A stretch of DNA of 28,853 nucleotides, taken from IMG/VR virus record IMGVR_UViG_3300020421_000099, positions 1 through 28,853 of that record; one strand, 5' to 3'. Each line of letters opens with the position of its first letter. Within the stretch, counting starts at the first letter, position 1. This stretch comes from a virus. A program made the position numbers and the translations under genes. The notes beneath the pieces were generated by a model. The model saw only the letters and a list, made by a program, of their open reading frames with translations. It did not search any database and had not been told where the DNA came from. Below are positions 2,650 to 28,853 of this stretch, piece after piece.

Positions 2650-2650
2650 A

Positions 2651-2992
2651 TCATACTGCTAACGAAGAATTTACTAGTGCTTGACCAGCAAAAATTTTGG
2701 TCTTTGAACCATTATTTAAGTTGGTGATAATAACATCATACTCGTATCTACCAGCAGTAATGATACCAGTCTGTGTGTCAGTCAATGATATTGTTAGGTT
2801 TCCTTGAGTTGCATCATTACCATAAGTAGCAGCAAATCCAACATAACCAGAAGCCTCCGCATGTTTTCTCATTTTTGCTGAGAAACTATAAGGAGTTAAA
2901 TTCAAAACTGAGGAATCTTTTTTCTTTACAGTGAATGTAGAAGAAAAATCTGTTCCCTTTTCAATTTGTATATTTACTGATGGTACTGCCAT
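2651..2992 (-). CDS. BppU-like N-terminal-domain tail protein
   Basis: The 113-residue protein contains an IEKGTDFSSTFTVKKKDSS stretch, then LTPYSFSAKMRKHAE (about 10-46). This matches the 'G-x-(D/T)-F-x-x-x-(F/V) ... DLTGYt-x-x-a-x-(I/M)-R' pattern of small beta-sandwich domains found at the N-terminus of BppU-type upper baseplate proteins and many marine phage tail proteins. The second half alternates beta strands and ends in AGQALVNSSLAV. Here the domain stands alone rather than being fused to a fibre, so it could be an adaptor. An AGG lies 6 bases before the ATG, and an ATAAATA late motif lies 22 bases upstream. Assignment rests on pattern recognition of a weakly conserved fold. Confidence 0.7.
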   Translation of the reverse strand: MAVPSVNIQIEKGTDFSSTFTVKKKDSSVLNLTPYSFSAKMRKHAEASGYVGFAATYGNDATQGNLTISLTDTQTGIITAGRYEYDVIITNLNNGSKTKIFAGQALVNSSLAV

Positions 2993-3012
2993 GTAAACCT
3001 AGTTCAGTATTT

Positions 3013-3222
3013 CTATTTATTTTGTTTAAGTATTAACTGTTTCAAAATCTCAATTTCACTCTTCAATTCATCTAATTCATACTTTTGTTTCAAGCGAGAA
3101 TCTCTATCGTTCATATAACGATCATACTCTCGTTTGTCTGTATTCACTATCGCAGTCGTCTTCAGATCCCTCTCTAAGGATCTGAAGTTCTCTACTTTTG
3201 CTCTCTTTGATCGGGAATGCAT
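3013..3222 (-). CDS. Small coiled-coil phage protein (conserved T4-like type)
   Basis: The 69-residue product starts with a basic segment (HSRSKRAKV), followed by FRSLERD and a central TTAIVNTDKREYDRYM. It ends in a charged helix (about 45-69) with heptad-like Leu and Ile residues. The 'basic N-terminus, LxRD, AIxNTD, Y, coiled coil' layout is one I recognise from small proteins of T4-like marine phages that have no assigned role. The ATG at 3222 is the first in frame after a TAG, with only a weak GGA upstream. Its first 101 bases overlap, in another frame, a 48-residue reading frame that is TAATG-coupled to the giant gene upstream. A virion assembly role is inferred from context. Confidence 0.72.
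   Translation of the reverse strand: MHSRSKRAKVENFRSLERDLKTTAIVNTDKREYDRYMNDRDSRLKQKYELDELKSEIEILKQLILKQNK
3014..3020 (-). promoter_or_regulatory. T4-like late promoter motif (ATAAATA)
   Basis: The minus strand reads AAAATAAATAGAAATAC, a near-consensus T4 late box about 22 bases before the ATG of the 113-residue gene. The box overlaps the TAG stop of the 69-residue coiled-coil gene. Confidence 0.6.
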
Positions 3223-3268
3223 CGTCTAAAGTTCCATCGAGTACTTCGGCTAATAACCACCAAGCCAT
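3122..3268 (-). CDS. Possible 48-residue protein overlapping the coiled-coil gene
   Basis: This short frame opens with an ATG that overlaps the TAA stop of the 2360-residue gene as TAATG, the same junction used by at least four other gene pairs here. The product begins MAWWLLAEVLDGTLDDAF, then becomes charged and ends with RQTRV. The Trp pair and hydrophobic start followed by an acidic tail look unlike random frame noise, but are not diagnostic. Two thirds of it lies over the start of the 69-residue gene in a different frame, so at least part of its composition is dictated by that gene. It could be a real small protein. It could also be a leader whose translation carries ribosomes to the ATG at 3222, which otherwise has a weak ribosome site. 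Confidence 0.45.
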   Translation of the reverse strand: MAWWLLAEVLDGTLDDAFPIKESKSRELQILREGSEDDCDSEYRQTRV

Positions 3269-6200
3269 TATGCTACTGCTATTGCCCTGAAGTCTAGCAG
3301 TTCAGGATCTTGTGCCTGGTTAGTTGAAGAAATATCAATCTTTATTTGGAATCCAGTAAACTGTGGTAGGTCATCAACACCAAATTCATATTCAACGAAT
3401 TGATCTTCTAGACTTGCATTAATCTTTCTATCAGATCTACCACTATTATTCTTCTCATTGATAACATCACCTGATGCATCTAGGTTATCATAACCTGGGA
3501 ATAATGAGAATACCTTATCTATCTCATCACTATCAGCTCTATAGAGTCTATAAAGAACTCTGATGTCTGCTGATGGTGGTCTAAATGCAGCAAATAATAC
3601 TTTCAAAGCAGTTGAAGGAGTTTCTAACCTAATAACCTTAGTTAGATATATGTTATCATGTGGATCATCTAAAGTATTTGCTCTTCTATCAGTAATGAAA
3701 TCGGCAATAGGAGAATTAACTCTTGCAGACTCTGTAATAACAGAACTCCTGAATACATCAACAACAGGTGATACGTTAGTATTGAGAGTTGACAACTGCA
3801 ATTCTATAGTGAATGACTTACCACCAGGAAGTGCAGTCATCTTAGATGTCTCATTATCATAAGAACAAACCATCTGAGGTTTCAAGAATCGTGTTTTTCC
3901 AGCAAGTGAAATACTTTGGAATCCCTTGTCAACAAATGAAGTTTCATTTCCACCAATACTTGTAGCAGAAGTAGTTCTTACTGAAGCATTGATATTGGTT
4001 TTTTCTGGAATTTGATGAGTGATATTTGGAATAATTGTCTCAAACTGAATATTCTTAGTTCCTCTACCTCTATTTCCACCACCATGCTTATCCTTATTGA
4101 AGGATGCACTACCAGTAAGTTCAACATGATACGAATCCAATGTCACCTTATCAACAATTGTATTACCAACATTGACCAAACTATGAGATGTATTGATCTT
4201 TCTTAGTGATACACCAGATAACTCATACTTCTGTATAGGAGTATCTATCTCATAACTTCTAGCAATAGTAGAATCTTGAGATCTTGTTATACCAGAAAGG
4301 TTATTTGTTCCGACTGTAGTGTACTTGATTACCTCCTCACCAATTAGAGCATATCCAGGATTACTGTTGTTTACTTGAGCACCTTCAAACCAGTTGAATC
4401 CTGTACTACTTGCAACACTTACAGTGCTAGTAAGACTTGCAGCATAACCAACGGTTAGTTTTGTAGGTACAGAATCTCCACTAAGACCTGTCAATGATAC
4501 AGTATTGTTAGCAGCATGGAGTCCATGATTAGGATGAGTAACCTTGAAATGCTTACCATCATATTGATCTGAATTTACAGTAACAGTAGCAGGTGTGATG
4601 TTAGCAAGAGTTACACCATATCCTAATGTAGAATTATAATACTGTATTAGATTTGTGGTATTGAAGTTAGTTTCACTACAACTAGTAAGTACCAATGCAT
4701 TAGTACCAGTAGTAACACCAACTGTTAGAACTAAATCTTTTCCAAGTCCTTTCGTACCAAGTGCAGCAGTGATAGTATCACCTACCTGATATCCTTGACC
4801 TGTCTGAACACCCTTGACAGTTGCTCCAGTTATAGCACCTGACGATACTGTAACGACACCAACAGCACCAGATCCTTTACCAGTTACACTAGTAAAGCTT
4901 ACTGTACTATAAGTAGCATCTTCATATCCACTACCAGCATTGGTTACGGATAATGTATTAGCAGCAGTACCAAGGTGTGCTAATTTCTCAGCAACAATAC
5001 CATCAGCACCAGCATTTGAAACTTGTTGGATCTTAGATCCAATATGTACAACAGCACCAGAAGCACCAACAACAGATGAAGTTAGACCTACAGTTACTCT
5101 CTTACCAAATGTTTCTATTGGATTTTCAGGTAACTTATTCCTTGTTCCCCACTCACTAAGTTGTGGATTATACATCCTCAAAGTACCAGGATCACTAACG
5201 AATTCTGCCTTATATGCAGTATACTTCATGTCCTCAAGTTGTGAGGCAGTCCATGTAGACTTTGTTTGACCTTTGAATAAAGATCCAACAGCAGGTTGTT
5301 GAGAAACAATAACTTGCCCTAATTCAGATAAGTTAGCAGTTGCTATCTCAGTTTCACCCATCTGAGATATCCAAAGTTGATAATCAGATGTATTAGAGTC
5401 TAGTACAAATGCATACTCACCTGTGGGTAAGTAAACTGGTGAATCAAAAGTAAACTTGGTTGGTACTGTAGCATCCGTAGATGTAAAGACCTGATCTGGG
5501 TTCAAGGTAACTTTACCATTCCTAGCAACACTCTGAGAAGGATATCCATTTACTACCTCTACAACAGCTAAGTCAATAGGAATAGTATTAGATTTATTCA
5601 TGAAGTAAACTTCAATAGAAGTTAGGAAGATACCAGGATCCTCATCAACAAAGAAACTTTGTGCTAATGGATCACCATGATCATCATCATTATTCCTTGG
5701 TTGAGGACGAGGTGTATTTGTAATATTGGTTATATTATTTGTAATATTGGTTATATTGAATACTTGTGGTGGTGGGAATACTGGAAGTGTCCTTTCTAAG
5801 GTTAGTTCAGTAATCTCTTCACCTTCAGAGAAATGATCCGCAGCAGCACGAGAGTAGTTCAATCCAGGAATAGTATCCTGTGGTCTTATACTAGAAAGAC
5901 GTGCAGTGTTAGTACCATTGTTGAATGAATCACCTGGGATATAGTAAGATCCAATAACAGCACCTAAATCATCTGTAATCAACCTAAGATCACTAATTAC
6001 TGCCTCAGCACCACTTTCTTCACCAACCAGTCTCATTCCAACACTTGCAAATCCAAAGAAGTTTGCATCTGATTTTTGATTCAATGATGCAGTATCAATG
6101 TTAAGAACAGTTGTTGTTTCTGAATATGCTGAAGATAAACCAACATTAGGTGAATATGGGTTATTGGTAAATGTTATAGTAGGAGTATTATAAGGACCAT

Positions 6201-9200
6201 CCTTGTGGTTAGGTGATGCTAATCTAAATCTTAGATCAGAACCTTGACTCACATTCTGTGTCGATACTGATAATCCTCTTACTGTCTCACCAGTTCTGAA
6301 TGCACCTTGAATAGGTGTAACTTCTAATAGTTTAGGTATAGTGTAAATATTATTTTCTATCATATCTGTACCAGCAAACCAGTTATAATGGTTTGTTCCT
6401 GGTTTTAGTTTTGTACCTACAAACTGAATATTCTGTTCCCTCATATTGGGGATAGGATCAGTTGTAATAATAATATCGTTATTGAATCCTATTCCATCAT
6501 CTTCTGTTTGGAAGACTCTTTCTGTGAAGACATCAGACTCAGGATTCAAAGTTAGATTACCTCTCCAACTTCTGAAAGCATATGGGTTTACACTTTCAAC
6601 CCTAGTAGCAAAGGGTTGTTGGAAATCCTCAACTTCACTATAATCTAGAGTTACAAGGTCACCAGTTTTCTTGATATTTGTTGATCCTAAATCAGTAGCA
6701 AATCTTGGGTCTACAGTTAAATCTGGAGTACCATTTGTACCTACAATAGAATCAGATCCAACTAATAAATCAATACTATCAACATATCTTCTAGAAATTA
6801 ATTTACCATCACTAAGATCATACTTCAAGAATGGTACAGACTTATCTGCAACATCAAAAGTATCGAATGGATCTACAACAAAACCATTCTTGAATCTATC
6901 AAGACCTGTAGTTGAATCGGTAATAACTAAACTTTCAGTCTTAGATTCTAACAATGAAAGTGAAGTAGTTTCTTCTAGATTCTCAATGCGATCTTCTAGT
7001 CTACCAATATCCTTCATCGTATAACGCTTATTAGCACGGAAGGTAATTGTTACATCCTTCTTAGGATTGTAAACATATGGTTTATACTCAATCTTAGCAA
7101 TCTCAAAAGATTCACCAAGTGTTTCAGGTTCTACTGGTCTAACAGCAGGAACACCTTTTTGGAATGACCATGTAGAATCTTTATTCAAGAATAACCTATC
7201 AATTCTTCCAAGATAGTGTTTATAATCAAACTGAATATTCTCATCAGATACTAATACAGTAGCAGATTGACCAGCAGCACTAAAGTCTCTTGAATCGAAT
7301 TCGAAAGGTGATCTACTACCAGAATAAGGAGCAACTCTAGGTCTTAGGTCAATAACATCTGTATTCCTAACATTATCGAGAGCAGGAACAGTATCATAAT
7401 TAGCTTTATCGTAACTATTGACTGTTAGTATGTCACCAGAATCTTCTGAATTTATTGTATAATAATCATAGTAAACCTTTAATCTTCCTTGTGGTTCTGG
7501 GAAATTTTGTTTTCTAACCAAACGACCAAAGTCATAATACTCTTCTCTCTGCCCAGAATCTAAAATAAAGTTATTTCTTATATTTGGATCACCAGAATCT
7601 ACGTTAGATAGAACTGCTCTAACTCCACTTTCTTCGAAAGTTACCTCTTCATTATCTGAGAAAAGATTACTATTCTTGAAAAGAACATCAATCTTAGTTG
7701 TACCACTTCTAGCAAGAACTAAAGCAGCTGCACCAGAACTTTGACCAACACCAACCTCACCTAATATAATATCACTGTTATTGCCATTAGGACCATTGAA
7801 AGATCCAAGAGTAAGTGATGGAACAGATGGTTCAGCATTACCTGAAGATTCAAATACAGCAGTAACTCCTACCACATCAGGAACATTAAGAGAAATTTCT
7901 CTATCCTGAACACGTCTACCATACACATCACTAGGTGTAAGACCGTCTGATATAGAAGTACTTACACCAGAATATGAACGATTAGATCCAGTTATATTAA
8001 GAATTGCTTGTCTTACAAGAGTCTTTTGTTTAGACTTAACCTTAGCTTTCTGCTGTGTACTATGTACAACTACGTTATTTGATTGTGATGCAGTAAGACC
8101 TGAAATAGTAACTCCCTTACCACCACTAGTCAAAACAACCTGATCAGAAGTTAGTGTTTCAACAGCACCAGTTGTATATACAACTGTATATCTCTCTTCA
8201 TCGAATGGAGCATAGACATAATCAGTTCCTGTCAAAGATGGAAGATCCATTTGACCTGAACCATCAGTACTTTGTCCAGTACTTTCTACTCTAACCTGCA
8301 TTATAGAATCAGTTAGATCAATAGATTCTATATTTGTATCAGGTAATTCTGCATATAGGAATCCATTGTTAGATGATCTTATCTTAGATGAAAGAATCTT
8401 TAAATCACTAACAGTTGTAGTTGAAGATGGTAATGCCTTATGACATACGTTAGAAATAGTGGCTGGAGCAGCAACTAGAGTTATATTATTATTTGCAGCA
8501 CTAACAGCACTTACTTTGTTGTAAGTAACATCTGTTACACCACCACGCTTATATGCAACTATATCCCCAATCTTGAAACTTTTTACCCATCCAGCTCTAC
8601 CACTAGTAACAACACCACCACTGGTTATACTGAATGAACGTCCACTAAATTCTTTCTTAGTTTCTAAAACTACGTCTGCAGCAAATGTTCTACTAGCAGC
8701 AGTAGATCTAACTGCCTTTACATCACTGAGATCATACTCAGTAACAGCAGTAATTACTCTACCATCTTCAGTACCATTAATGATAATTTGCTCATCAACT
8801 ATAAACTGACCAGATACCTGGTTTAGGGTTATTCCTGTTGAGCTTGATACTGCAGATCTTAGATAACCTCTAGCACCACTTCTGCTACCTTCAATAACAG
8901 CAGGTAATGCAATAGTATGTGCTTGATTGACAGTCAACTGAGTGTCTGTCTGAATGTCCATAAGGAACAATTCCCATACACTAGAAGCATCTACATACCC
9001 TGCATTCTGTAACTTATAATCATATACCCTTGCACGACCTATAGAAGACCCTGAGGCAGTCGATTTAGTACTACCTAGTCTTTCACTACGTAAGTCAACA
9101 TAGTCCGATGTAGCAGCAGAAAGCTTGATCTGAGCAGCATTTAGGACATTATTCAACCTTATTTTATTACCTGCTTGGAAAGGAACTACTGAACTTTCTA

Positions 9201-10350
9201 CTAATTCAGTTGTTCTTGGTTTATCAACATCTAAGAATGTAGATCCATATACTTCCGTCTCATAACCTTTTACATATGCTTTACCTGGACCAACCCTAAT
9301 ATTCATTAGGTCTTTAGATGGTTCATTACCATCATCAGTTATAGATCCTGGATAGAAAGTTCCAAATACAGAATGCCTATCATTCAAACATTCCTTTGAT
9401 TCTAAATCAAACTTTCTAACATAATAATTTCCACTTTCATCAAATGTCCTTCTAGCAAATTCTTTAGCAATCTCACTATAAACTGTCTTATCAGCAACTC
9501 TAGTTACTTCTCCTTCTTTAGCTCTAAGAAGTTCAATAAAACTCTCATCTTGAAAATCATCTATTTCTTTCTTTGTAAGAGTAAAGCTAATCTTTAGTCT
9601 GTCAGCACCAGGAGCAGTATAGTTAGAGAATCCAGCAGCATTATCATATAATGTATCATCATCAACTGCAGTTACAATGTCTTCTTTAATGAAGAATCCA
9701 ACTCTATATGATGGTCTATTACTATATTGATCTAGTATTAATGTTTCTTGACTTACCTCAACAAATGCACCACGAGCAAACCATACACCTTTAGTAACAG
9801 TAAATGCAGAACCAAGTGCAGTTGCATTGGATTTTATAGCAGTAGCAAAATCACTACCATCAGTAATGGTAGTAGTACCGTATGTGAAATTTGATAATGT
9901 AGTAAGATTTTCTCCATCTAGGAATTGTTCTGAAGCATAATCATCAGAACTCTTTTCATACTTGACATAAAGAGTAGTATGATTTGTAATAGATGTAGAA
10001 GATGAGAGAACCTTTACAACTTTAGCTGTGATACCAGATGTCTTACCCTTAATATTGAGACCAACAAGCTTATCATAGTACAATTCTACGGGAACACCAA
10101 AAAACGTAGATTCTACTTTGACAGCAGTATATTGTGAATCATATTGGAAAACACCAGGGATAACTACTGATCCCTCTTTGAACATATGTTTACCAAACTT
10201 CTCTATCTGTCCTTGTAGGATAGATTGAAGGGTTGTTAGTTCCCGTGCTTGTACGGGAGTGCCAGGTTTGAAAAGAACTTTATTAAAGTTCTTAGACGAT
10301 TCAAAATCATCAAAATATGGGCTGACATTTAAATTGGTGTTCTGTGGCAT
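3268..10350 (-). CDS. Giant virion structural protein with DUF4815-type N-terminus
   Basis: The 2360-residue protein starts with SPYFDDFESSKNF, then VLFKPGTPVQARELTTLQ and HMFKEGSVVIPG (about 10-66). This is the highly conserved start of DUF4815 proteins of T4-like cyanophages. A long beta-rich region follows, then an Asn/Thr/Ile repeat (NITNITNNITNITNT, about 1532-1546). Next come a Pro/Asp-rich linker and a conserved DPLAQSFFVDEDPGIFLTS segment (about 1560-1578). The C-terminal part ends in a compact domain with an AFRPPSADIRVLYRLYRAD stretch. Glycine-tyrosine beta repeats (SGYEDATYS, GQGYQVGDT) lie around 1790-1840. No signal peptide or enzyme motif is visible. Position after gp8 suggests a peripheral baseplate or fibre-network protein, perhaps replacing T4 gp9-gp10. 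It starts 4 bases after the gp8-like stop. Confidence 0.85.
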   Translation of the reverse strand: MPQNTNLNVSPYFDDFESSKNFNKVLFKPGTPVQARELTTLQSILQGQIEKFGKHMFKEGSVVIPGVFQYDSQYTAVKVESTFFGVPVELYYDKLVGLNIKGKTSGITAKVVKVLSSSTSITNHTTLYVKYEKSSDDYASEQFLDGENLTTLSNFTYGTTTITDGSDFATAIKSNATALGSAFTVTKGVWFARGAFVEVSQETLILDQYSNRPSYRVGFFIKEDIVTAVDDDTLYDNAAGFSNYTAPGADRLKISFTLTKKEIDDFQDESFIELLRAKEGEVTRVADKTVYSEIAKEFARRTFDESGNYYVRKFDLESKECLNDRHSVFGTFYPGSITDDGNEPSKDLMNIRVGPGKAYVKGYETEVYGSTFLDVDKPRTTELVESSVVPFQAGNKIRLNNVLNAAQIKLSAATSDYVDLRSERLGSTKSTASGSSIGRARVYDYKLQNAGYVDASSVWELFLMDIQTDTQLTVNQAHTIALPAVIEGSRSGARGYLRSAVSSSTGITLNQVSGQFIVDEQIIINGTEDGRVITAVTEYDLSDVKAVRSTAASRTFAADVVLETKKEFSGRSFSITSGGVVTSGRAGWVKSFKIGDIVAYKRGGVTDVTYNKVSAVSAANNNITLVAAPATISNVCHKALPSSTTTVSDLKILSSKIRSSNNGFLYAELPDTNIESIDLTDSIMQVRVESTGQSTDGSGQMDLPSLTGTDYVYAPFDEERYTVVYTTGAVETLTSDQVVLTSGGKGVTISGLTASQSNNVVVHSTQQKAKVKSKQKTLVRQAILNITGSNRSYSGVSTSISDGLTPSDVYGRRVQDREISLNVPDVVGVTAVFESSGNAEPSVPSLTLGSFNGPNGNNSDIILGEVGVGQSSGAAALVLARSGTTKIDVLFKNSNLFSDNEEVTFEESGVRAVLSNVDSGDPNIRNNFILDSGQREEYYDFGRLVRKQNFPEPQGRLKVYYDYYTINSEDSGDILTVNSYDKANYDTVPALDNVRNTDVIDLRPRVAPYSGSRSPFEFDSRDFSAAGQSATVLVSDENIQFDYKHYLGRIDRLFLNKDSTWSFQKGVPAVRPVEPETLGESFEIAKIEYKPYVYNPKKDVTITFRANKRYTMKDIGRLEDRIENLEETTSLSLLESKTESLVITDSTTGLDRFKNGFVVDPFDTFDVADKSVPFLKYDLSDGKLISRRYVDSIDLLVGSDSIVGTNGTPDLTVDPRFATDLGSTNIKKTGDLVTLDYSEVEDFQQPFATRVESVNPYAFRSWRGNLTLNPESDVFTERVFQTEDDGIGFNNDIIITTDPIPNMREQNIQFVGTKLKPGTNHYNWFAGTDMIENNIYTIPKLLEVTPIQGAFRTGETVRGLSVSTQNVSQGSDLRFRLASPNHKDGPYNTPTITFTNNPYSPNVGLSSAYSETTTVLNIDTASLNQKSDANFFGFASVGMRLVGEESGAEAVISDLRLITDDLGAVIGSYYIPGDSFNNGTNTARLSSIRPQDTIPGLNYSRAAADHFSEGEEITELTLERTLPVFPPPQVFNITNITNNITNITNTPRPQPRNNDDDHGDPLAQSFFVDEDPGIFLTSIEVYFMNKSNTIPIDLAVVEVVNGYPSQSVARNGKVTLNPDQVFTSTDATVPTKFTFDSPVYLPTGEYAFVLDSNTSDYQLWISQMGETEIATANLSELGQVIVSQQPAVGSLFKGQTKSTWTASQLEDMKYTAYKAEFVSDPGTLRMYNPQLSEWGTRNKLPENPIETFGKRVTVGLTSSVVGASGAVVHIGSKIQQVSNAGADGIVAEKLAHLGTAANTLSVTNAGSGYEDATYSTVSFTSVTGKGSGAVGVVTVSSGAITGATVKGVQTGQGYQVGDTITAALGTKGLGKDLVLTVGVTTGTNALVLTSCSETNFNTTNLIQYYNSTLGYGVTLANITPATVTVNSDQYDGKHFKVTHPNHGLHAANNTVSLTGLSGDSVPTKLTVGYAASLTSTVSVASSTGFNWFEGAQVNNSNPGYALIGEEVIKYTTVGTNNLSGITRSQDSTIARSYEIDTPIQKYELSGVSLRKINTSHSLVNVGNTIVDKVTLDSYHVELTGSASFNKDKHGGGNRGRGTKNIQFETIIPNITHQIPEKTNINASVRTTSATSIGGNETSFVDKGFQSISLAGKTRFLKPQMVCSYDNETSKMTALPGGKSFTIELQLSTLNTNVSPVVDVFRSSVITESARVNSPIADFITDRRANTLDDPHDNIYLTKVIRLETPSTALKVLFAAFRPPSADIRVLYRLYRADSDEIDKVFSLFPGYDNLDASGDVINEKNNSGRSDRKINASLEDQFVEYEFGVDDLPQFTGFQIKIDISSTNQAQDPELLDFRAIAVA
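5716..5757. repeat. Perfect 2 x 21-base tandem repeat encoding Asn-Ile-Thr units
   Basis: Two identical 21-base units (5716-5736 and 5737-5757, in phase with codons) lie inside the 2360-residue gene. On the minus strand they encode the NITNITN repetition that precedes the Pro-rich linker. In-frame perfect identity suggests recent duplication or slippage, so this is a possible length-variable linker. Confidence 0.9.
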
Positions 10351-21000: not shown

Positions 21001-23347
21001 TAGAAGTTGAATCAAACTCAACCGACTGATGGTCGGTCTTCATATTCGCTTTTAGTATAGCAGTCGTATTATTACCGCCTATTATTTTTACAGTAGGTGT
21101 TTCTTCGTAGTCTATACCACGAGTATTAACAAGAACTTCAGTAAGACTACCTTGAACTTGCGCTATAACCGAAGCACCAGCCCCAGTATGACCATCTTGA
21201 TTGACAGCAATACGTGGTGGGTTGATTACATCATAATCATAACCCTCATTAAGAACTTCAACAGATTCTAAAGGTCCATAGTAAACTATGTCGGTTGATT
21301 TATAAGAATAAGCCTCAACACCATTAGCAAATAACCCAACACCACCTTGAACAGTTTTATCATGTTCTGAAGCAAATTCAGGTTCTTCGAACTTTCTAAG
21401 TAACTTTTGTGGTCCTAATGATGTCCCAGAGACTATTGAGGGGGTCAGGAAGTGGGTAGAAGTACCTGATATATCAGATCCACTGAATGCAGTAAGGAAT
21501 TGCCCTCTACGGACGTTTTCAGCAGTATATGCAAGTTTTACAGAATTATCATTAACTTTCTTGATGTAATATGGTTGACCTTCATTTAAATTTGTTAGTG
21601 TGCCTATTCCTGAAGATGTATATACTATTAGATCACCATCATGTAAATTATGATCAATAATTGATATTTCTACAGTAGTCGTAGTTATACCTGAATTAGT
21701 AAACTCACGAATCCTTTTTTGCGGATCAATATTCCAATGTGGGAAACTATTAGACGCAACATATAAAGTATTATCGTCAGAATACGTATTTTGAACATCT
21801 GCAGTATATCCATCTACACTAACTTTTAATTTTCTGCGTATAGAATACTTTGTATCTGGATCTAATGTAGGGGTGTTTATAGTAAGACGCTTTGGAAGAG
21901 TACTATAAACGAAAGTAACTTTACCATCGAATATAACTCCATCTGGATCTATTACCTCAATTTCATCACCGACATATAGTTGATGTTCTGCTGATAGATC
22001 AACATTATAGTTAAATTGACTGACAAGTCCAAATCCATCAATTGCATATGTAGCAGCAGTATTATAGATCCAAGTAGACCATTTTAGATCATCTTTTGGT
22101 TTACCCAGTGTCTTTACATCAATATCAGATTCTCTCTGCTGATTCAATCCAGTTCCAACAAACTTACTAAGAACACCCAGTACATTGAAAATAACCAGTT
22201 TAGTTATATCACCATCTTCATAAGAATATGCTGGTATACCTGATGTAACAGTAGATCCAATACCACATGGAGAAGTAAGTGTTGTTATTCCAGTAAACTG
22301 TGTGAGATTCTTTCCAGTATAATCTATTGTTCCATCTTCAAAATCGAAAGTTCCTGAAGTATCAAAACCAACAGTAGAATCAACATTTAGAATTGTCGCA
22401 CCTATAGGAGAACTTTTTGTAATAAATGTCTTACCTGCTTGCTTAAACTTACCAATAGTAGTACCTTTAGAGATAGAAATCTTATAAAAATCCCTATCTC
22501 CTATGACAGCACGTTCAACATCGTAAATAGAACCACTTGATTCAATAGGAGTTGTTTGCTGAATTAAACTTTGTCCAGTTATTTTTAATGGATTACCTAG
22601 TAATAATTCGCATACTAATACATCGTTTACAACATAATCCGCATCAGATGGTCTTACAAGGAATTTGGATGGTTGAACCATCTCAACAGTCTCACCATAT
22701 AATGCTCCAAATAATATTTTGAACGCTTCTTCAGTACCTTTAGACTTATAGAAGTCTTTTGCTTGTCTTATAAAATTAGATTGATTTAGATCTTCATCAA
22801 GATTTCTTTCCGCAAAACCATGTAATACTTGTTTCTTGAGTTTCTTTCTAAACTCAGTTAGAAAAACATTAGATAAATTGGTAACTCTGGCATCCACAGC
22901 ATGAGTACCAATACCAGTAGAAGTAAAAGTAAGATATTCTGGCGAGTTGGTTTTAGCATTGTTTTCGATGCCGCTAAATCCACGGACACATCCAGTAAAG
23001 GTATTTGTAGTTATACCAGTATAAGTGATAATCTCATCATTTACCTTCAACAAACCCCATTGATTAGGCCAACCTTTAGTTGAATCAACATGAATTGTAT
23101 CTGAAATACCAGTTGCATATTGAGATATTGATGTGAATCCAATCAGATTCTCATCATTGAGAAAATCTAGTCCTTTATAATCAACTAAATTATCCGCAAT
23201 ATCAATTGCACCTCCCTGATATTCTTGGGAAATATAGTATTGTTTTAGAAACTCACCAAATAGAGGGTTCTCGGTATCAATGGATTCAGGTACTTGGCTC
23301 TGAATAACCTCATTGATCTTAACTCTGGTAAAAGATGTTGTTATCAT
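15062..23347 (-). CDS. 7: Giant gp7-like baseplate wedge protein with YHYH domain
   Basis: This is the largest gene (2761 residues). Residues about 25-245 resemble the C-terminal region of T4 gp7: a PLFGEFLKQYY segment, then LTEFRKKLKKQVL, then DFYKSKGTEEAFKILFGALY, GETVEM and a tail with LLLGNPLKI. T4 gp7 has the comparable 'FYSTKGIEASYKFLFKVLYNEEVEIEI ... LLGRL' order from memory. Downstream are three copies of an HGFxxGDxxxY...YYV bead (about 556-636, 793-872, 906-976), several Gly-Tyr beta repeats, and a YHYH domain at about 1145-1295 (VGWAYDGNPIYGPYG, DLDEHNGRYA, GVYAYHTT). The C-terminal ~400 residues look like fibre or lectin-type beta domains. Joined to gp6 and to the next gene by TAATG overlaps, it should occupy the gp7 position in the wedge. 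The gp7 name fits the N-terminus only. Confidence 0.85.
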   Translation of the reverse strand: MITTSFTRVKINEVIQSQVPESIDTENPLFGEFLKQYYISQEYQGGAIDIADNLVDYKGLDFLNDENLIGFTSISQYATGISDTIHVDSTKGWPNQWGLLKVNDEIITYTGITTNTFTGCVRGFSGIENNAKTNSPEYLTFTSTGIGTHAVDARVTNLSNVFLTEFRKKLKKQVLHGFAERNLDEDLNQSNFIRQAKDFYKSKGTEEAFKILFGALYGETVEMVQPSKFLVRPSDADYVVNDVLVCELLLGNPLKITGQSLIQQTTPIESSGSIYDVERAVIGDRDFYKISISKGTTIGKFKQAGKTFITKSSPIGATILNVDSTVGFDTSGTFDFEDGTIDYTGKNLTQFTGITTLTSPCGIGSTVTSGIPAYSYEDGDITKLVIFNVLGVLSKFVGTGLNQQRESDIDVKTLGKPKDDLKWSTWIYNTAATYAIDGFGLVSQFNYNVDLSAEHQLYVGDEIEVIDPDGVIFDGKVTFVYSTLPKRLTINTPTLDPDTKYSIRRKLKVSVDGYTADVQNTYSDDNTLYVASNSFPHWNIDPQKRIREFTNSGITTTTVEISIIDHNLHDGDLIVYTSSGIGTLTNLNEGQPYYIKKVNDNSVKLAYTAENVRRGQFLTAFSGSDISGTSTHFLTPSIVSGTSLGPQKLLRKFEEPEFASEHDKTVQGGVGLFANGVEAYSYKSTDIVYYGPLESVEVLNEGYDYDVINPPRIAVNQDGHTGAGASVIAQVQGSLTEVLVNTRGIDYEETPTVKIIGGNNTTAILKANMKTDHQSVEFDSTSTGSVVNTATDRFVFSEPHGFKNGEEIIYDSNDSTTIGIGITPGNLVDTAPYYVVKLDDFQIHISESRTKALSGIGTIDLTTNGGGLQRFKTTARRNIVDKIAIEDSGLFKNREIKTPTVGVNTFTSVININQHGFDHGDIIKYSTTGSVIGGLTANTEYYVDKITDDQFRISSSKTLATYIDLTNSGLGVHIFQDPPISIDISGRQGISTSNATATPIIRGQVKSIHVSENGSEWGSTVINDNFKPVIDTVIGKNAFIQPFIVNGQIDQIIVKHGGTEFWSTPDVIIDGDGVGAKAKAVVYDGTIIRIDIIDKGIGYTQEQTTATAKTPGTDAIFSSNIKTWTVNQVDRYARYGDVNEDDGFYETARDSDLGNPYINYYIPRLLRDWLGDVGQDHSPIVGWAYDGNPIYGPYGIVDGGFKYMESSYIKLASQRVDGPNISKYPAGFFCEDYTYVEGVGDLDEHNGRYAATPEFPNGVYAYHTTVDPVPVNNPTDPFNGVRRPIFPYIIGDTYHSRINEFNIGFDNDQDLDPVKLNLVRNTKPHNIPEYEFISNSNKNTGKNAKLSNTKSGSVESVDIIISGQDYNVGDKLVFDNRETDGFGAIGKVSRIEGPGINTLTTTITTWPNVVLSYEKNTVIGIATYPHSIPDGASIQIVGISTNTHDSLGGLVTIAVREVSTNLGVAMRPVTTSGMTTSVYITDWLPEYVTSDYKFSVDDIVLIDSEQLKILNFDVKNNRLEMLRAQNGTTGAAHTFGTKITRLEKEFTYTAPSSFDLSTPTDEAYYFNAEKSVGVGLTFGVGIGSTVSVAARGGNQIVAFHGNEIKDKFIPTRSIYIPDHPFTTGDKVLYSPGAGTSLTYQTDAMKRVNVGFKRPLPPELYVQVIDNSLVGIVTTQSGIGSDLQRVMFDTNNVAIGNTHSLKTNRDVITASAKVHKVTATTAQPHTLRPKDVIDLTIVSSATSSVTAAYDPGNRFVSIGSSVNPPISLIKGDTLSVDTSSVSLLNTRLEFFLDNKYNKPFVGSGVSTIEVQNFGIPGNAGSLTKIHFTEQVPEVLYYKFLPLQNTKVIEVNTDIVDYSKIFVNVSKFTGKHTISSITSTTFDFNLFDFPEVVGYSSESLIRYTTDSKNIIGPISSIELQSGGVQYIDTPEVSVASTTGSSATLKAFGSDIGAIDKVTTIDAGYDYPSDGTLQPQAAVPQVLFLKDNFSIGSVAITSTGRNYLTPPNFVVYNSKTDSVNQGPQFESQMTGGSVTGVKIISGGGNLSSGDVEIHAVDNTNGVGIISALYASGSKTVTLRLQTPQTGFTTAVPFPFTVGDKVFVENVGVQTGNGYNSADYGYKPFTLTGVTTAYGNINQATVTYVVDKDPGMHDYAKYGTVTNDKDLAKFKVSLVESEFLNGEPVTSSSGGVAEVVKGIGKTRNVLRIDSLVGFNTGDTVKGAYSTAGGTIDSSQEYTGHFELDSSFEKPFGWERDTGKLSDFYQRVQDNDYYQNFAYALKSTVGIASWSEPVDSVAHIAGFKKHSDLIINSTPSTAPQVAGISSGAGGVILLDAEASLFDRHQYDIVTENTNLEETISDEITFTSGRFGDALICKTNRVLEIDDISPQFYSDPDLIRSVELDTFDMLTGGPDGSGITAIKYYAQVSLDVALGVSFNATQYSEFVVFHDGTDAYLNTYSELSDYDDLGEFTTSTNGQLASVMFVPANSAYAYDITFHKEIISNAVGVATTSFGFQQYVGETKALAVNGSLVQQDVISIDATKYKSGTILVAARKSGGQREIDEFTWLADGANNVIFTAYGNMLGTTDVGALALDMASNTLKLKHTPPVGVAVTISTLARNVGVAQTVTGTGITGNYEIGDTALSNTYTTITATGSPSTNIISQKNYSNYSTCKYRIEIQNTTDSTWSTFVVGSNSYGGNSNWNRYNNLSTATDQKRDMRATDIYVIGGNTQLRFTPLANKAYIVRVSEMKIDKPDVVSSNITFTL

Positions 23348-25227
23348 TATCGGGTCTTCTTACCGTTTTGGTAGCTAGATTTAGGATCATATCTTGTGCC
23401 AGAAGTATTAGCACCAGATGAAATAGAGTCTTCTCTCATAGAGAAACTACTTTTTGACACATCAAACTGTAAATACAATTCCTTACGTGCTAAAACATCG
23501 TTTGATTCTGGAATTGCTTGTATTTCAATGATATTATCTGATAACGAAGTAGACGTTATATTGACAGTATCTATAATGATTTCACCCTTCTTATAATCAA
23601 CACTACCAAATGAATCAGAAACAACAGTTATTTCAGTATCGGAAGTGACTTTGAATAAGAAAAGAGTTCCTCTATTAGTTCCTGCAATAGACCTATCTGA
23701 GAAATAAACAGTACCATTAACACCAGATACAGTAAATCCAGTAGATTTGATATTATAATTATTTTGACTACGATAGAAAGTATTATCAAAACACAGTTCA
23801 TACTGAGCAAACTGGTTTAGAAGTGCCTTCAAATCCCTCCTTATTCTTACAGTAGTGATATTTGATGTTATTGAGGTATTTACATTATCAATAAGTGATA
23901 ATATCTTACTATACTTGAACCTACCACCAAACTTGTTTAGTTCAGTACCAGACGCAAAAGAGGTAAGAGAGGAGATTATATCACTCTTCAAGTTCTCCTT
24001 ACTACCTATAAAACTTGGGTTATAGTAAATGCAACTATCAATCTCAACATACAAGAACTTCAAATCAATCAATTGCGGAACAATTCCTGCAACAGAGTAA
24101 CTTTTTAGAGATTTTAGTATTTGCTTCTTAGTAAACTCTGATAAGAATGATCCATTCTTAGGTTTAGCAGCAACAAAAACTCTACCATACTTCGGTGGAT
24201 TTAACTCCTCACCACCAAATGCACTTATAGATTCTATATTTGGATAAACTGATGGTACAATTGCTTCATAATCTGACGCTGTTACCGCCCTATACTGTGC
24301 GGAATACATCCTTGGAGCATAATAACGAAGACTTCTAACAGACTCTATCTCATCACCATCTGCAGATGGGAAGTTAGGTGTTAGTATAGAGAAGAAACCA
24401 GATAAAGATGCTCCATCCTGATCCTCTAATGTTCCAGAAAAACTAAGTTGATTTACACCATTACCACCTTTACCTTCTGTTTTTATATAAGAAACATCTA
24501 TAACATTACCATTAGTAAGTTTCCTACCAAATATACCATCACCAAATAATAACTCATACTTCTCATCAGTAGTTTCTTGTATGAGATAAATGTTAGATGT
24601 TGAAGTTACACCAACAATATTATCAACTAATTTGTATTCGGTAGTTGTTGTACTACCCTCATTGTCTCTAATATACACTCTTAGAGTAGATGTGTCTATA
24701 CTATCATTCGGAAGAATAAAACGCTGATTTGGTTGAGAATCATTCTTAATATATTCGGTTTCTAAAAATTGTCCTTGAAATATTTCAACAGTACCTGCAG
24801 AATAACCATTGATAGCAGTACCAGTAACCTTTTCGGGTATAGAGAAAATATAGTTTACGTTAGATACTGAACCATTAGCAATAACACCTGGTTGGAAACT
24901 AATAGTAGTAGCTGATGTACTAAGACCTGTTATGTTATATGTTGCTGTTGTTCTTGCTGCTCTTTTTGACCTAGGAACATATCCAATATTACGTGCAAGG
25001 GATACAACGTTCTCTCTTAAAGTAGCAGAGTCAATGAATGTCTCATTGACCACCATATTAGTGTTATATGCAGTAAGATATGAATTATACGCTAATAAAT
25101 TGATAATAACAGATAGGTTAGAACCCTCAAAGTCCATATCTGAGAAATTTGAGTTTTCTCGTAGATAGTCCTTTATAGAGGCTTTTATATCCTCAAAATT
25201 TAGGTTTGTAAACTGTTGTAGTGCCAT
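23347..25227 (-). CDS. 6: Baseplate wedge subunit gp6
   Basis: This 626-residue protein is close to the 660 residues of T4 gp6, the dimeric wedge scaffold that forms the inner baseplate ring. The N-terminus has the family landmarks: NFEDIKASIKDYL, then FSDMDFEGSNLS, LLAYNSYLTAYNTNM, NETFIDSATLRENVVSLAR and IGYVPRSKRAA (about 10-90). The middle contains the Baseplate-J-like region, with LRYYAPRMYSAQYRAVTASDYEAIV (about 304-328) and AVTASDYEA at its core. It partners with gp25, gp7, gp53 and gp8 in T4. The ATG overlaps the gp25 stop (TAATG), with an AGG ribosome site 6 bases before it. No anomaly is seen in length or motifs. Confidence 0.93.
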   Translation of the reverse strand: MALQQFTNLNFEDIKASIKDYLRENSNFSDMDFEGSNLSVIINLLAYNSYLTAYNTNMVVNETFIDSATLRENVVSLARNIGYVPRSKRAARTTATYNITGLSTSATTISFQPGVIANGSVSNVNYIFSIPEKVTGTAINGYSAGTVEIFQGQFLETEYIKNDSQPNQRFILPNDSIDTSTLRVYIRDNEGSTTTTEYKLVDNIVGVTSTSNIYLIQETTDEKYELLFGDGIFGRKLTNGNVIDVSYIKTEGKGGNGVNQLSFSGTLEDQDGASLSGFFSILTPNFPSADGDEIESVRSLRYYAPRMYSAQYRAVTASDYEAIVPSVYPNIESISAFGGEELNPPKYGRVFVAAKPKNGSFLSEFTKKQILKSLKSYSVAGIVPQLIDLKFLYVEIDSCIYYNPSFIGSKENLKSDIISSLTSFASGTELNKFGGRFKYSKILSLIDNVNTSITSNITTVRIRRDLKALLNQFAQYELCFDNTFYRSQNNYNIKSTGFTVSGVNGTVYFSDRSIAGTNRGTLFLFKVTSDTEITVVSDSFGSVDYKKGEIIIDTVNITSTSLSDNIIEIQAIPESNDVLARKELYLQFDVSKSSFSMREDSISSGANTSGTRYDPKSSYQNGKKTR

Positions 25228-25631
25228 TATAACCTAGTTGGTTCTAAAACGAAATTGATTGTTTGTTGGGGTGCATCCAAGCCTACTATGCGATATTTAA
25301 TAGTAACGTCTAAACAATTGTTATCAGGTTCAACGATCAGATCAACGCCATCCAACTGAACTCTAGGTTCAAAGTTAGATAATACGACTTCAACTTCTGT
25401 TCTTATTGGATCAATATAAGTTGAATCAGCCAATTCAAACAATGACTCGGTAATTCTAGTACCTACAAGGGGATTGAAAACAGTCTCTCCGAGATGTGTC
25501 CTCACCAAATTTTGCACAGAACGTTTTATCGCATCCTCATTTTTCAAAACAAGTACATCATTTGTGATGGGATGCTTCTTAAAAGACAATGAAATGTCTT
25601 TAAAACCCTGAGAAAACCGTTGTTGTGGCAC
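25227..25631 (-). CDS. 25: Baseplate wedge subunit gp25 (GPW/gp25 family)
   Basis: The 134-residue length matches T4 gp25 (132). The protein has the GPW/gp25 signature: FKDISLSFKKHP near the start, an AIKRSVQNLVRTHLGETVFNP segment (about 34-54), GTRITESLFE (about 57-66) and an EVVLSNFEPRV region (about 82-92). It resembles tail-lysozyme-related baseplate proteins but lacks enzymatic activity, and initiates sheath assembly at the inner baseplate. The start is GTG at 25631, with an AAGG 12 bases upstream. An ATG start would cut into the conserved N-terminus. It is the first gene of the late baseplate operon, placed right after the terminator and two CTAAATA motifs. Confidence 0.93.
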   Translation of the reverse strand: MPQQRFSQGFKDISLSFKKHPITNDVLVLKNEDAIKRSVQNLVRTHLGETVFNPLVGTRITESLFELADSTYIDPIRTEVEVVLSNFEPRVQLDGVDLIVEPDNNCLDVTIKYRIVGLDAPQQTINFVLEPTRL

Positions 25632-25651: not shown

Positions 25652-25668
25652 TATTTAGTTCTATTTAG
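25652..25668 (-). promoter_or_regulatory. Tandem T4-like late promoter motifs (two CTAAATA)
   Basis: The minus strand reads CTAAATAGAACTAAATATA: two copies of CTAAATA (25662-25668 and 25652-25658) exactly 10 bases apart, on the same face of the helix. They lie between a terminator and the GTG of gp25, about 21 and 31 bases upstream, as expected for the late promoter of the baseplate operon. Confidence 0.7.
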
Positions 25669-25671
25669 AGA

Positions 25672-25704
25672 CAAAAAAAGACCTCCTCTACTGAGAAGGT
25701 CTTT
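25672..25704 (-). terminator. Factor-independent transcription terminator
   Basis: On the minus strand AAAGACCTTCTC and GAGGAGGTCTTT pair across a short AGTA loop, with one G-T wobble, and are followed by a run of seven T. It lies 25 bases after the stop of the 57-residue gene and before the late promoters of gp25. It would end the accessory transcript and isolate it from the late baseplate operon. On the plus strand there is no matching gene to terminate. Confidence 0.88.
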
Positions 25705-25928: not shown

Positions 25929-26684
25929 CTATATAATTCTTGTCTTCTCATGACCTACACGACACTTAGGATCACACCATATTTCGAATCCTGCTTTGAT
26001 AGCATCAAGACAGAATGAAACATCTTCTCCACACATATCCTGTACTTCTCCTGATTCAAACACCTGCATTTGAGGAGCAAACCAAGGATACTTCATTTCC
26101 TCATGCTCAAATACACCTTTCTTGATAAGTAACCATCCGAATCCAGCATAATCAACAGTAAATGGTTTACGACGCTTTTGAATGCCGTCTACCATCTCAT
26201 GATTCATAACCCCACCATTCTCTTTGAAATCATTCTCTTCCAACCAGTGAGCAACTGATGTTGTTTGACCGTCTTCTGTAGCATACCAACCGCCAGCAAT
26301 ATCCTTGTCCATCGATAACACACGATAAAACGACTCGTTGTTAAACACGATGTCGCTATCGATCCATAATTGATAGTCATATTGAAGTTTTCCGTCCCAT
26401 GGTAATTGATCTGGTCCACGTAATACATTAGCACCTAAGCACTTACAACGTGCAAAGTTTACCATTGATGAATAATCTTGAGATATCTGTATACTCGCTC
26501 CGTTCTGTACCAATTCAAAACAGAGTGAGACAAAGTTTTTCAGGAAAATATATGATACTCCTCTACCTGGTAAACAAAAGACTATACTCTTTCCTTTGAG
26601 TTTTTCTTTTGCTGCCTCCAAGTCAAAGTCATCTTTATTTTCAACTGTTGGTGGCTGTGTTACCACCTTAAATCCTTTAGCCAT
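25929..26684 (-). CDS. Glycosyltransferase-like protein, GT-A fold
   Basis: The 251-residue protein shows GT-A landmarks: an N-terminal strand SIVFCLPGRG (about 33-42), the nucleotide-sugar and metal-binding WIDSDIVF with DSD at 109-111, an acceptor-side DYAGFGWLLIKKG (about 178-190), and a catalytic-region GEDVSFCLDAIKAG (about 219-232) where ED is typical. A conserved CRVGHEK (about 241-247) follows. It resembles GT2-type or phage-encoded sugar transferases acting on glycans or on DNA bases, but sugar and acceptor cannot be read. It lies next to SGNH and carbamoyltransferase genes, fitting a glycan-modifying cassette. A sigma70-like promoter lies 27 bases upstream, so it is probably transcribed early or middle by host polymerase rather than with the late genes. 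Confidence 0.82.
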   Translation of the reverse strand: MAKGFKVVTQPPTVENKDDFDLEAAKEKLKGKSIVFCLPGRGVSYIFLKNFVSLCFELVQNGASIQISQDYSSMVNFARCKCLGANVLRGPDQLPWDGKLQYDYQLWIDSDIVFNNESFYRVLSMDKDIAGGWYATEDGQTTSVAHWLEENDFKENGGVMNHEMVDGIQKRRKPFTVDYAGFGWLLIKKGVFEHEEMKYPWFAPQMQVFESGEVQDMCGEDVSFCLDAIKAGFEIWCDPKCRVGHEKTRII

Positions 26685-26710: not shown

Positions 26711-26739
26711 ATTATAACAGATTATATATGATCTATCAA
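26711..26739 (-). promoter_or_regulatory. Sigma70-like promoter (TTGATA-17-TATAAT)
   Basis: On the minus strand TTGATA (26739-26734) is followed, after exactly 17 bases, by a perfect TATAAT (26716-26711). The -35 element lies within the last codons of the SGNH gene and the -10 element just after its stop. Transcription would start about 20 bases before the ATG of the glycosyltransferase-like gene and run to the terminator at 25672-25704. Confidence 0.72.
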
Positions 26740-27414
26740 GTCAATAACTTTATCAGCAATCAATTGATGACCTTTTACTGTAGGATGACCACCCCTTTTT
26801 CCATGTGAATAATTCGACCAAAACCTAGAATCTTGAATATCTCCTAAAAGATTATAATGTAGACAGAAAGGATGTATACCATCACATAATGATCTCCAAT
26901 ATCCTATATTATTATGATCTCCAAAACCATTTATCCTATGATAACGTTTTTCTGGTCTTTGTAATAAAATATCATAATGATCTGCTACCAAAGAAACATA
27001 TTTTATACCTCTACTTTTACAATAACTATCAAATAAAAATACATTCTTCCAAAAATTCTCACAACCTACTATATCATTATAGACTGATATGTAATATCTG
27101 TTGATCTTTGTTTTATCAACTCCTGTAGGATACTGAACACACCAGTTTTCAATCTGTCCTCGACTAGTGAAGTATTCTAACCTTGATATAACAGTAAACT
27201 GTATAACAACAACATCAGGTTTATTATGTTCAAGATATTTTATTGTCTTCCTTACAATAGCATCATTACTATACCCACATTCACCTATATTCAAATGATT
27301 ACACTCATAATGATCTGATACAAGTTTACTAAATCTCTGATTGAATCTATCCCCTAGTTCATCACCAAAAGTATAAGAACATCCACTAAAAAACAATGAC
27401 TTCATATTTTTCAT
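26722..27414 (-). CDS. SGNH-hydrolase-like protein
   Basis: The 230-residue protein opens with FFSGCSYTFGDELG (about 8-21), a block I form in which Ser13 would be the nucleophile. It has NIGECGYSND (about 42-51) as block II, a QFTVISRLEY stretch (about 72-81), and HPTVKGH (210-216) as block V, where His210 would be the catalytic base and the upstream charged residue is replaced by Gly. This suits an SGNH/GDSL esterase or O-acetyl-group hydrolase acting on polysaccharide. The 'GCSxTxG' subtype occurs widely in marine phages and bacterial polysaccharide loci. ATG at 27414 or 27405 is possible; the first overlaps the carbamoyltransferase end by 29 bases. No signal peptide is seen, so it acts in the cytoplasm or is released on lysis. 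Confidence 0.78.
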   Translation of the reverse strand: MKNMKSLFFSGCSYTFGDELGDRFNQRFSKLVSDHYECNHLNIGECGYSNDAIVRKTIKYLEHNKPDVVVIQFTVISRLEYFTSRGQIENWCVQYPTGVDKTKINRYYISVYNDIVGCENFWKNVFLFDSYCKSRGIKYVSLVADHYDILLQRPEKRYHRINGFGDHNNIGYWRSLCDGIHPFCLHYNLLGDIQDSRFWSNYSHGKRGGHPTVKGHQLIADKVIDLIDHI

Positions 27415-28774
27415 GAAATAATTTCACATCATCTTTGCTATTTACCATTGGTTTACCTCTAACATTCAATGAGGTATTCAATAACACAGGACAACCAGTA
27501 CGTTCGTACCATGCCTCTAGAATCGGTCTTAGGATGCTTTCAGAGGTTTCTGGTACTGTTTGTACTCTTGCTGACCCATCAACGTGTAGACAGGCAGGTA
27601 TATCGTCTGGACGAGTACATTGATAAGTATAAGACATATACCTAGAATGGTCAGGCATATCAAACCACTCGTGGCAATGCTCTTCGAGAATAGAAGGAGC
27701 AAATGGTCTGAACTTCTCCCTTTTTTTGATCGTATTGACGAGATCTTTTGTGGAAATTTCTCTTGGATCCGCCAAAAGACTTCTATTACCAAGAGCACGA
27801 GGGCCAAACTCTGCACGACCATTTGCGACACCAACGACCTTATTTTCGAGTAAGCTCGTAACCACTTCTTTCGGATCAATCTTACCATTGATGTTATGCC
27901 CCAAATACGGAGAAAATTGTACTTTCTTACCATATGCTAATAAAGCAGCTCCTAATGCACCACCAGCGTCACCTGGATTAGGCATAATCCAAATATTGTT
28001 ATCGCTAAAGCGATCCTGTAATTTAGAGTTTACCACACAGTTTAGTGCAACACCACCCCCATAACAGATATTATTACTATATGATGACGCTATTTTGAAG
28101 ATATCAACCAATTCTTTCTCTAATATAACTTCTGCACTCTTTGCAATATCACATGGGTCACCTTCAAGTCCACGTATACCTTTATGATTATTCCTATAAA
28201 GTAGTCGCTGTAACTCCTTGGTATGACTGGGTTTTCCGTAGGCTGCCATTCCCATGAAGATATATTCTTCATCTAACGGTCTTAAACCTGCCCATTTAGT
28301 CAACGCAGAATACCAAAGACCAATAGACTTAGGATACCGTCTAGACCACACTTTCTTATAAACTGCCTTATCATCTTCCATTTTAGCAACCCAAATGGAA
28401 GAACAATCCCATTCACCAATACTATCTACAACTACACATGCTGATTCATCAAATACTGATGTTTGGAATGCTGCAGCAGCATGTGACTTATGATGAGGAA
28501 AATAAACAGTAGGTTGCATTGAAAGATATCGTTCACTCCACCCTGCCTTCTGTCCAGCGTATATTTGTCTCGTTTTCTTCAATAACGGATTTTCATAGAA
28601 TGCAACAACATCATCTTTGAGATTCAACCCTCTTGCAATCATTGATGCATTAAGATCCAAGTACTTATCATGCTTCTTCTTAGAGTAACGTTCTGAATGA
28701 CTAGCATATAGGATACTACCATTATTGACTACTGCAACAGCAGCGTCATGAAACCCTTCGCTAAACCCTATCAT
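27386..28774 (-). CDS. Carbamoyltransferase, NodU/CmcH family
   Basis: The protein resembles NodU/CmcH/TobZ O-carbamoyltransferases, which transfer carbamoyl from carbamoyl phosphate, via carbamoyl-adenylate, to a sugar hydroxyl. The N-terminal Kae1-like ASKHA domain begins IGFSEGFHDAAVAVV, with the metal-binding HHKSH (94-98), GGGVALNCVVNSK (239-251) and PGDAGGALGAA (267-277). The C-terminal domain has GRAEFGPRALGNRS (319-332), KREKFRPFAPSILEE (351-365) and LNTSLNVRGKP (432-442). At 462 residues it is about 100 shorter than typical NodU or TobZ. Its ATG overlaps the preceding stop as ATGA, and its end overlaps the SGNH gene, so the cluster is tightly packed. The substrate is probably a surface glycan of host or virion, from context. 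Confidence 0.93.
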   Translation of the reverse strand: MIGFSEGFHDAAVAVVNNGSILYASHSERYSKKKHDKYLDLNASMIARGLNLKDDVVAFYENPLLKKTRQIYAGQKAGWSERYLSMQPTVYFPHHKSHAAAAFQTSVFDESACVVVDSIGEWDCSSIWVAKMEDDKAVYKKVWSRRYPKSIGLWYSALTKWAGLRPLDEEYIFMGMAAYGKPSHTKELQRLLYRNNHKGIRGLEGDPCDIAKSAEVILEKELVDIFKIASSYSNNICYGGGVALNCVVNSKLQDRFSDNNIWIMPNPGDAGGALGAALLAYGKKVQFSPYLGHNINGKIDPKEVVTSLLENKVVGVANGRAEFGPRALGNRSLLADPREISTKDLVNTIKKREKFRPFAPSILEEHCHEWFDMPDHSRYMSYTYQCTRPDDIPACLHVDGSARVQTVPETSESILRPILEAWYERTGCPVLLNTSLNVRGKPMVNSKDDVKLFHEKYEVIVF

Positions 28775-28853
28775 ATAGGTTTACCCCAAGAACTCGGCAA
28801 AGATCCAAACTCGTCTTTCCATTGCAGGTAGACTGGATCCAATTGTTCTCTAG
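28771..28853 (-). CDS. 3' end of an unidentified upstream gene
   Basis: Reading from the window edge on the minus strand, 26 codons lead to a TGA that overlaps the carbamoyltransferase ATG as ATGA. The visible tail contains LDPVYLQWKDEFG and then LPSSWGKPI. The composition looks like a genuine protein end rather than noise, and the ATGA junction is typical of coupled phage genes. Another open frame runs across the same bases but lacks such a junction. Too little is visible to assign a function. Confidence 0.6.
   Translation of the reverse strand, partial: REQLDPVYLQWKDEFGSLPSSWGKPI

Follow-up and report, generated by a model that had tools for sequence, protein, structure and literature searches.

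Genes and transcription signals at the locus

The stretch of DNA analyzed here (the window) is the entire IMG/VR record IMGVR_UViG_3300020421_000099 (28,853 bp), the minus strand of which holds a T4-like baseplate region with gp25, gp6, a 2,761-aa gp7-like protein, and gp8. On the upstream side of gp25, the same strand carries p57, a glycosyltransferase (GT) gene, an SGNH-like hydrolase gene, a carbamoyltransferase (CT) gene, and the end of a sulfotransferase-like gene (Table 1). Elsewhere in the window, a 2,360-aa DUF4815 protein (phrog_358; positions 3268 to 10350) is probably a large virion protein, and a small ORF at the far end of the tail region (positions 493 to 993), for which Pfam gave no match at an E-value of 0.01, is 38% like a methyltransferase on an island contig of AG-345-D19.

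Table 1. Features on the gp25 side of the window and the evidence for each
Feature	Position	Strand	Evidence
gp6, baseplate wedge protein	23347..25227	-	Pfam Gp6-like; phrog_219 E=5e-196
gp25, baseplate wedge protein	25227..25631	-	Pfam GPW_gp25 E=4e-13; phrog_261
Late-promoter-like motif TCTAAATA upstream of gp25	25662..25669	-	Motif counts across loci
Intrinsic terminator between p57 and gp25	25677..25704	-	12-bp stem with T run
p57, small conserved ORF, 57 aa	25729..25902	-	phrog_3252 E=1.3e-9
GT, probably of GT-A type; core gene of T4-like cyanophages	25929..26684	-	phrog_1574 (T4-GC 102) E=7.7e-117
Sigma-70-type GT promoter, TTGATA-17-TATAAT, TG before -10	26711..26739	-	11/12 consensus matches
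SGNH/GDSL-like hydrolase, 230 aa	26722..27414	-	Weak DUF6071; AF2 fold; invariant S13, H210, H216
CT, NodU/CmcH/TobZ type, short form, 462 aa	27386..28774	-	Pfam PF02543 + PF16861; phrog_1601
Sulfotransferase-like gene, C-terminal end	28771..28853	-	Frame continued in contig L009; PDB profile family match

The CT has both domains of the NodU/CmcH/TobZ O-carbamoyltransferases, Carbam_trans_N (E = 1.1e-37) and Carbam_trans_C (E = 1.5e-53), over the curated Pfam cut-offs, and matches phrog_1601 with an E-value of 7e-95; by Pfam and PHROG, its identity as a carbamoyltransferase, given in the initial annotation, is certain. Alignment to its PDB relatives NovN and GdmN (TobZ being a third) revealed the motifs HHxxHA, D117, D269, GRxEFGPRALGxRS, and NTSxN, and nearly all of these core residues are invariant among 20 diverse relatives. 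The CT thus shares both Pfam domains and the conserved motifs with TobZ, NovN (PDB 9s2t), and GdmN, but is shorter by about 100 residues and has Val at the position of TobZ Trp 408. A scan of sequenced bacteria returned only relatives with 27 to 33% identity, mostly from SAR11, which argues against direct acquisition from a sequenced bacterium. The genes around these distant SAR11 relatives encode sugar dehydratases, GT4/GT2 enzymes, and a WcaJ-type sugar transferase, a setting that matches O-antigen or capsule-type clusters.

The SGNH-like ORF overlaps the 3′ end of the CT gene by 29 bp. Its sequence is weakly matched (DUF6071 at 20.3 bits against a Pfam cut-off of 27), and a plain-sequence PDB search returned nothing. 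An alpha/beta SGNH fold is supported by its AF2 model (pLDDT 89.7), the top PDB matches of which, by Foldseek, are GDSL/TesA/acetyl-xylan esterases; there were 63 PDB matches with an E-value of ≤0.001, and those listed are mostly GDSL-type esterases with a TM score of about 0.5. The block I Ser (S13) and block V His (H210) are invariant in 43 sequences, and H216 is likewise invariant among relatives. The canonical block III Asn (GxND) is missing from these proteins, where the block reads IQFT, and the Asp three residues before the catalytic His of block V is not kept, position −3 being variable. For these reasons, we refer to the proteins as SGNH-like rather than as canonical SGNH hydrolases.

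The gene directly upstream of the CT, missed by the initial annotation, is sulfotransferase-like; it shares 4 bp (ATGA) with the start of the CT gene, and its remainder lies beyond the window end. Contig L009, 100% identical over 5,932 bp, reaches 82 bp past the window and continues this frame. A profile of the island sulfotransferase-like proteins matched the PDB sulfotransferase 3rnl (E = 1.1e-7) and 3-O-sulfotransferases (E of about 0.01 to 0.05). Among 165 distinct full-length proteins that keep open frames, 144 have the PAPS 3′ phosphate motif (Arg and Ser, 8 apart), and the usual Lys/Arg of the 5′ phosphosulfate loop is absent from the 165 checked, the position being occupied by W (94), F (20), Y (6), H (4), or S (4), with no loop match in 37; hence the name sulfotransferase-like. 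Since this Lys/Arg, like the block III Asn and the block V Asp of SGNH enzymes, is not kept, catalysis by both kinds of protein may be non-canonical. Neither array has a convincing PHROG family match.

The GT gene occurs in 105 phage records, mostly of Synechococcus and Prochlorococcus phages and cyanophages, and lies directly upstream of gp25 in those inspected. Its DSD motif (D109-S-D111) is invariant among relatives. A plain-sequence PDB search with GT returned nothing, and its low-confidence model (pLDDT 60) has GT-A-type enzymes, including GlfT2, LH3, and COLGALT1, as its top 50 Foldseek matches. The GT promoter spans the 3′ end of the SGNH-like gene, being mostly inside it, and the 37-bp gap that separates the two genes; comparable sigma-70-type sites precede GT in most relatives, whether island-bearing or island-free. 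A late-like CTATATAA/CTAAATAA element is often found in the spacer of this promoter (window 26711-26739; L009-L189), whether or not the phage carries the island, and its embedding in several relatives points to a double promoter, early and late, like that described in S-PM2 (PMC2984593). Downstream, p57 follows GT in most relatives, and a hairpin with a T run follows p57 in 60 of 72 island loci versus 3 of 38 non-island loci. In 68 of 78 loci, CTAAATA lies no more than 120 nt from gp25 (expected, 0.016 per 120 nt); the S-PM2 late motif is NATAAATA (PMC2984593). In L134, GT and the baseplate genes are in opposite orientation.

Since GT has its own promoter and is followed by a terminator before gp25, it belongs neither to a CT-SGNH cassette nor clearly to a transcript shared with the baseplate genes. 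Rather, it stands apart as an older gene of the T4-like cyanophage core and neighbors the variable cassette from outside. The initial annotation had placed three enzymes with overlapping ends within positions 26722 to 28774, as one cassette next to the baseplate genes. The enzymes are real, but the boundaries were wrongly drawn: GT falls outside this range, the overlap holds for CT and SGNH-like but gives way to a gap and a promoter before GT, and the nearness to gp25 is true by position, with the terminator parting GT and p57 from it. A single operon of the three genes with GT and gp25 was likewise rejected, given these signals and the many phages that carry GT without CT or SGNH-like genes.

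Composition, order, and turnover of the island

An IMG/VR scan with the CT returned 255 relatives, of which the best 80 (66 to 100% identity) were kept. In all 79 of these loci that include GT, CT lies upstream of it on the same strand, bearing in mind that the loci were retrieved by CT itself. Between CT and GT, there was nothing in 17 loci, at least one SGNH-like gene in about 58, and a radical SAM gene in a few; the last replaces or joins SGNH in a sub-lineage (L077, L079, L080, and L085-L088). In L168, a CT-like gene is located after p57.

The 6 kb upstream of CT, analyzed in 31 loci, contain as many as 6 sulfotransferase-like genes (median, 3) and as many as 7 SGNH-like genes, with the island genes occupying both strands; every locus has at least one of the two kinds (0 of 31 with neither). 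A separate scan that started from the sulfotransferase-like gene retrieved the same island in most loci, along with a few island loci that lack CT (L226, L244, L248, L249, L258, and L267). Thus, CT and the island are not scattered independently among relatives, and the co-occurrence suspected in the initial annotation stands for a different set of genes: as the sequences indicate, those truly varying together are CT, SGNH-like, and sulfotransferase genes, with GT excluded, and the true partners of CT lie upstream, cut off by the window end. Host contamination was rejected, since dozens of independent contigs carry the island genes in one piece with gp25-gp6-gp7. Among the island loci inspected, none showed a polymerase, flippase, or ligase. 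Amidinotransferase-like genes occur in or near the island at L001 (MH319727) 2585-3904, L021:3571-6275, and G001:C1:132563-135370, as tandem pairs in two of these.

When the scan was started from GT, relatives fell into island-bearing and island-free groups among the matches listed. On a gp6 tree, a single change parts 60 island loci from 14 non-island loci (SH-aLRT 100), so that this set, a sample of the listed GT matches and of island loci retrieved with window proteins rather than a census, needs a single gain of the island.

Pairwise comparison of loci revealed that CT has about the same identity as the 3.5-kb GT-baseplate backbone, whereas the 4 kb upstream of CT are exchanged rapidly. 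Specifically, the median alignable fraction of these 4 kb was 0.99 at 90 to 95% backbone identity, 0.57 at 85 to 90%, and 0.39 at 80 to 85%. In one pair (L028 and L039) with a 97.0% identical backbone, they align over 52%, at 71.5% identity. CT is therefore a long-term resident next to a fluid island.

Relation to known systems

The interval between gp46 and gp25 is a known hot-spot of variation with small genes in T4-like cyanophages (Sullivan et al. 2010, PMC3037559). Judged from the gp25 side, the present island appears to occupy this hot-spot, directly upstream of the core GT; the genes described there are small and mostly hypothetical, whereas here they encode tailoring enzymes. The hypervariable "host recognition cluster" of pelagimyophages and cyanomyophages (PMC7029224) and the LPS clusters of P-SSM2 and S-SSM7 (PMC3037559) are likewise variable sets of glycan-active genes in T4-like marine phages, proposed to alter the host surface and prevent coinfection. 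They sit elsewhere, at VrlC-gp14 or close to hli03/phoH and not upstream of gp25, and differ in containing glycosyltransferases and sugar synthesis genes, with no CT-anchored sulfotransferase/SGNH arrays reported in the text searched. Hypervariable islands for surface modification are a known idea for marine T4-like phages (PMC7029224, PMC2984593, PMC3037559), and what is new here is the gene content and its location, in a lineage for which no cultured member was found. We found no paper describing this island in the open-access literature that was searched.

The island genes were found in no cultured phage of the annotated collection, in which AG-345-D19 is the sole match to the sulfotransferase-like and SGNH-like proteins. 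The contigs of this closest named relative (MH319727 and MH319728) carry a CT with 66% identity, SGNH-like genes before CT, a radical SAM gene after it, and sulfotransferase, amidinotransferase, and methyltransferase genes, with GT-gp25-gp6 on another contig; the contig ends stop the CT island from being linked to GT. The lineage is common in IMG/VR, with 255 CT relatives in one scan, and, as far as this search reached, absent from cultured phages bar this one single-particle genome. A host cannot be taken from the supposed "single cell" AG-345-D19, because plate AG-345 was a sort of extracellular particles (PMC6122165). The window itself carries no psbA-type host marker, but psbA-family genes are present in two long relatives, and the hosts of these uncultured, island-bearing ocean viruses are therefore probably photosynthetic cyanobacteria. 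The long relatives also encode NAD-sugar epimerases and a CTP_transf_3 cytidylyltransferase, which means that phage-encoded sugar metabolism exists. In one of the regions concerned (G002:C1:43542-46932; L110), downstream of fibre-like genes, the opposite strand carries CTP_transf_3, a weak SIS-domain protein, and two ORFs.

Proposed function of the island

We suggest, with a probability of roughly 0.45, that CT and SGNH-like form the stable, baseplate-proximal end of a lineage-specific hypervariable island for glycan tailoring, the target of which is probably the host envelope. The activity, substrate, and role of the enzymes are those that we infer from the chemistry of their families. CT would spend carbamoyl phosphate and ATP, by way of a carbamoyl-adenylate, to carbamoylate a sugar hydroxyl; the sulfotransferases would carry sulfate from PAPS to other hydroxyls; and the SGNH-like proteins would take off or move acyl groups. 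PAPS would have to be host-derived, and supply by the phage was rejected, since no APS kinase was found in seven relatives. Combined, the enzymes would alter the chemistry of a surface glycan, most likely the envelope polysaccharide of the infected cyanobacterium, and thereby the receptors met by competing phages and by progeny. The view of the initial annotation that these genes decorate polysaccharides is thus supported in part: the families, the upstream island, and the SAR11 clusters support hydroxyl decoration, but not by one cassette with GT.

We prefer the host envelope as the acceptor because of the SAR11 contexts and the precedents in the literature. Surface modification of marine cyanobacteria by phages has been proposed since P-SSM2, with no function proven in the literature searched. 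If, during infection, the envelope of Prochlorococcus or Synechococcus is indeed sulfated or carbamoylated by the island enzymes, the idea of coinfection avoidance becomes directly testable, and a fast, phage-side source of surface variation would be indicated. More tentatively, the fixed CT anchor and swappable sulfotransferase-like and SGNH-like paralogues could amount to a combinatorial "glycan code," in which close relatives write differing carbamoyl, sulfate, and acyl patterns on the same surface glycan; were this doubtful extension true, it would imply phage-driven serotype diversity in ocean cyanobacteria.

The place beside the baseplate suits a virion target equally well. Here, GT would glycosylate a protein of the baseplate or fibres, and CT, the sulfotransferases, and SGNH-like would modify the attached sugar, leading to altered adsorption or shielding of the particle. 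Position and the core GT favor such an acceptor: the placement beside gp25-gp6-gp7 is constant, GT adjoins gp25 in the inspected members of its 105 phage records, its model resembles the protein glycosyltransferases LH3 and COLGALT1, among others, and in P-SSM2, GT is flanked by a 2OG-Fe(II) oxygenase and a phytanoyl-CoA-dioxygenase-like gene. However, the resemblance comes from a weak model that is similar to many unrelated GT-A enzymes, and the early-type promoter of GT and the terminator shielding it from gp25 argue against simple late co-expression with gp25. A collagen-like acceptor was dropped, as the window's large structural ORFs contain no collagen-like G-X-Y run of at least six. Overall, we regard a virion glycoprotein as a possible but rather doubtful target.

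A small molecule or peptide, tailored by sulfation, carbamoylation, amidination, and radical SAM chemistry, is an improbable substrate in place of a glycan. The CT family does include the antibiotic-tailoring enzymes TobZ, NovN, and GdmN, and amidinotransferase-like and radical SAM genes stand beside the same set in some relatives, but the loci examined revealed no scaffold-making enzyme or peptide precursor, those SAR11 CT relatives that were inspected lie in surface-glycan clusters, and the quick turnover better suits surface interactions.

There is also only a slim chance that the island has no selected function and is carried as passenger DNA that fills up a headful genome at a recombination hot-spot, even though this hot-spot is known for variable small genes and "stuffer DNA" has been proposed for cyanophage LPS genes (PMC3037559). 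CT is retained in each of the 79 CT-retrieved loci with GT, and CT or other island genes recur throughout the island clade in the GT-based sample, among the matches listed. Moreover, the catalytic motifs are invariant in the 20 diverse CT copies, the identity of which matches that of the baseplate genes, and the 165 sulfotransferase-like proteins are still open.

Finally, 5-carbamoyloxymethylcytosine is the product of another phage-encoded CT from this superfamily (PMC8670742), but action of the window CT on phage DNA was rejected as very improbable: PF00303 (thymidylate synthase/dCMP hydroxymethylase) is absent from seven long relatives (the largest 192 kb; the window is a fragment), two of the three diagnostic residues (G329 and R331 of V316, G329, and R331, at TobZ 408, 421, and 423) are in the ordinary state when a 6-residue tag in the PDB chain is assumed and the DNA-type states are taken from the published sequence (PMC8670742), cyanomyoviruses are without modified bases in the literature (PMC2984593), and the sulfotransferases and esterases would be left unexplained.

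A second, distant carbamoyltransferase is spread over several ORFs at G001:C1:140703-143078 and G002:C1:5948-7406, as broken genes or assembly frameshifts.
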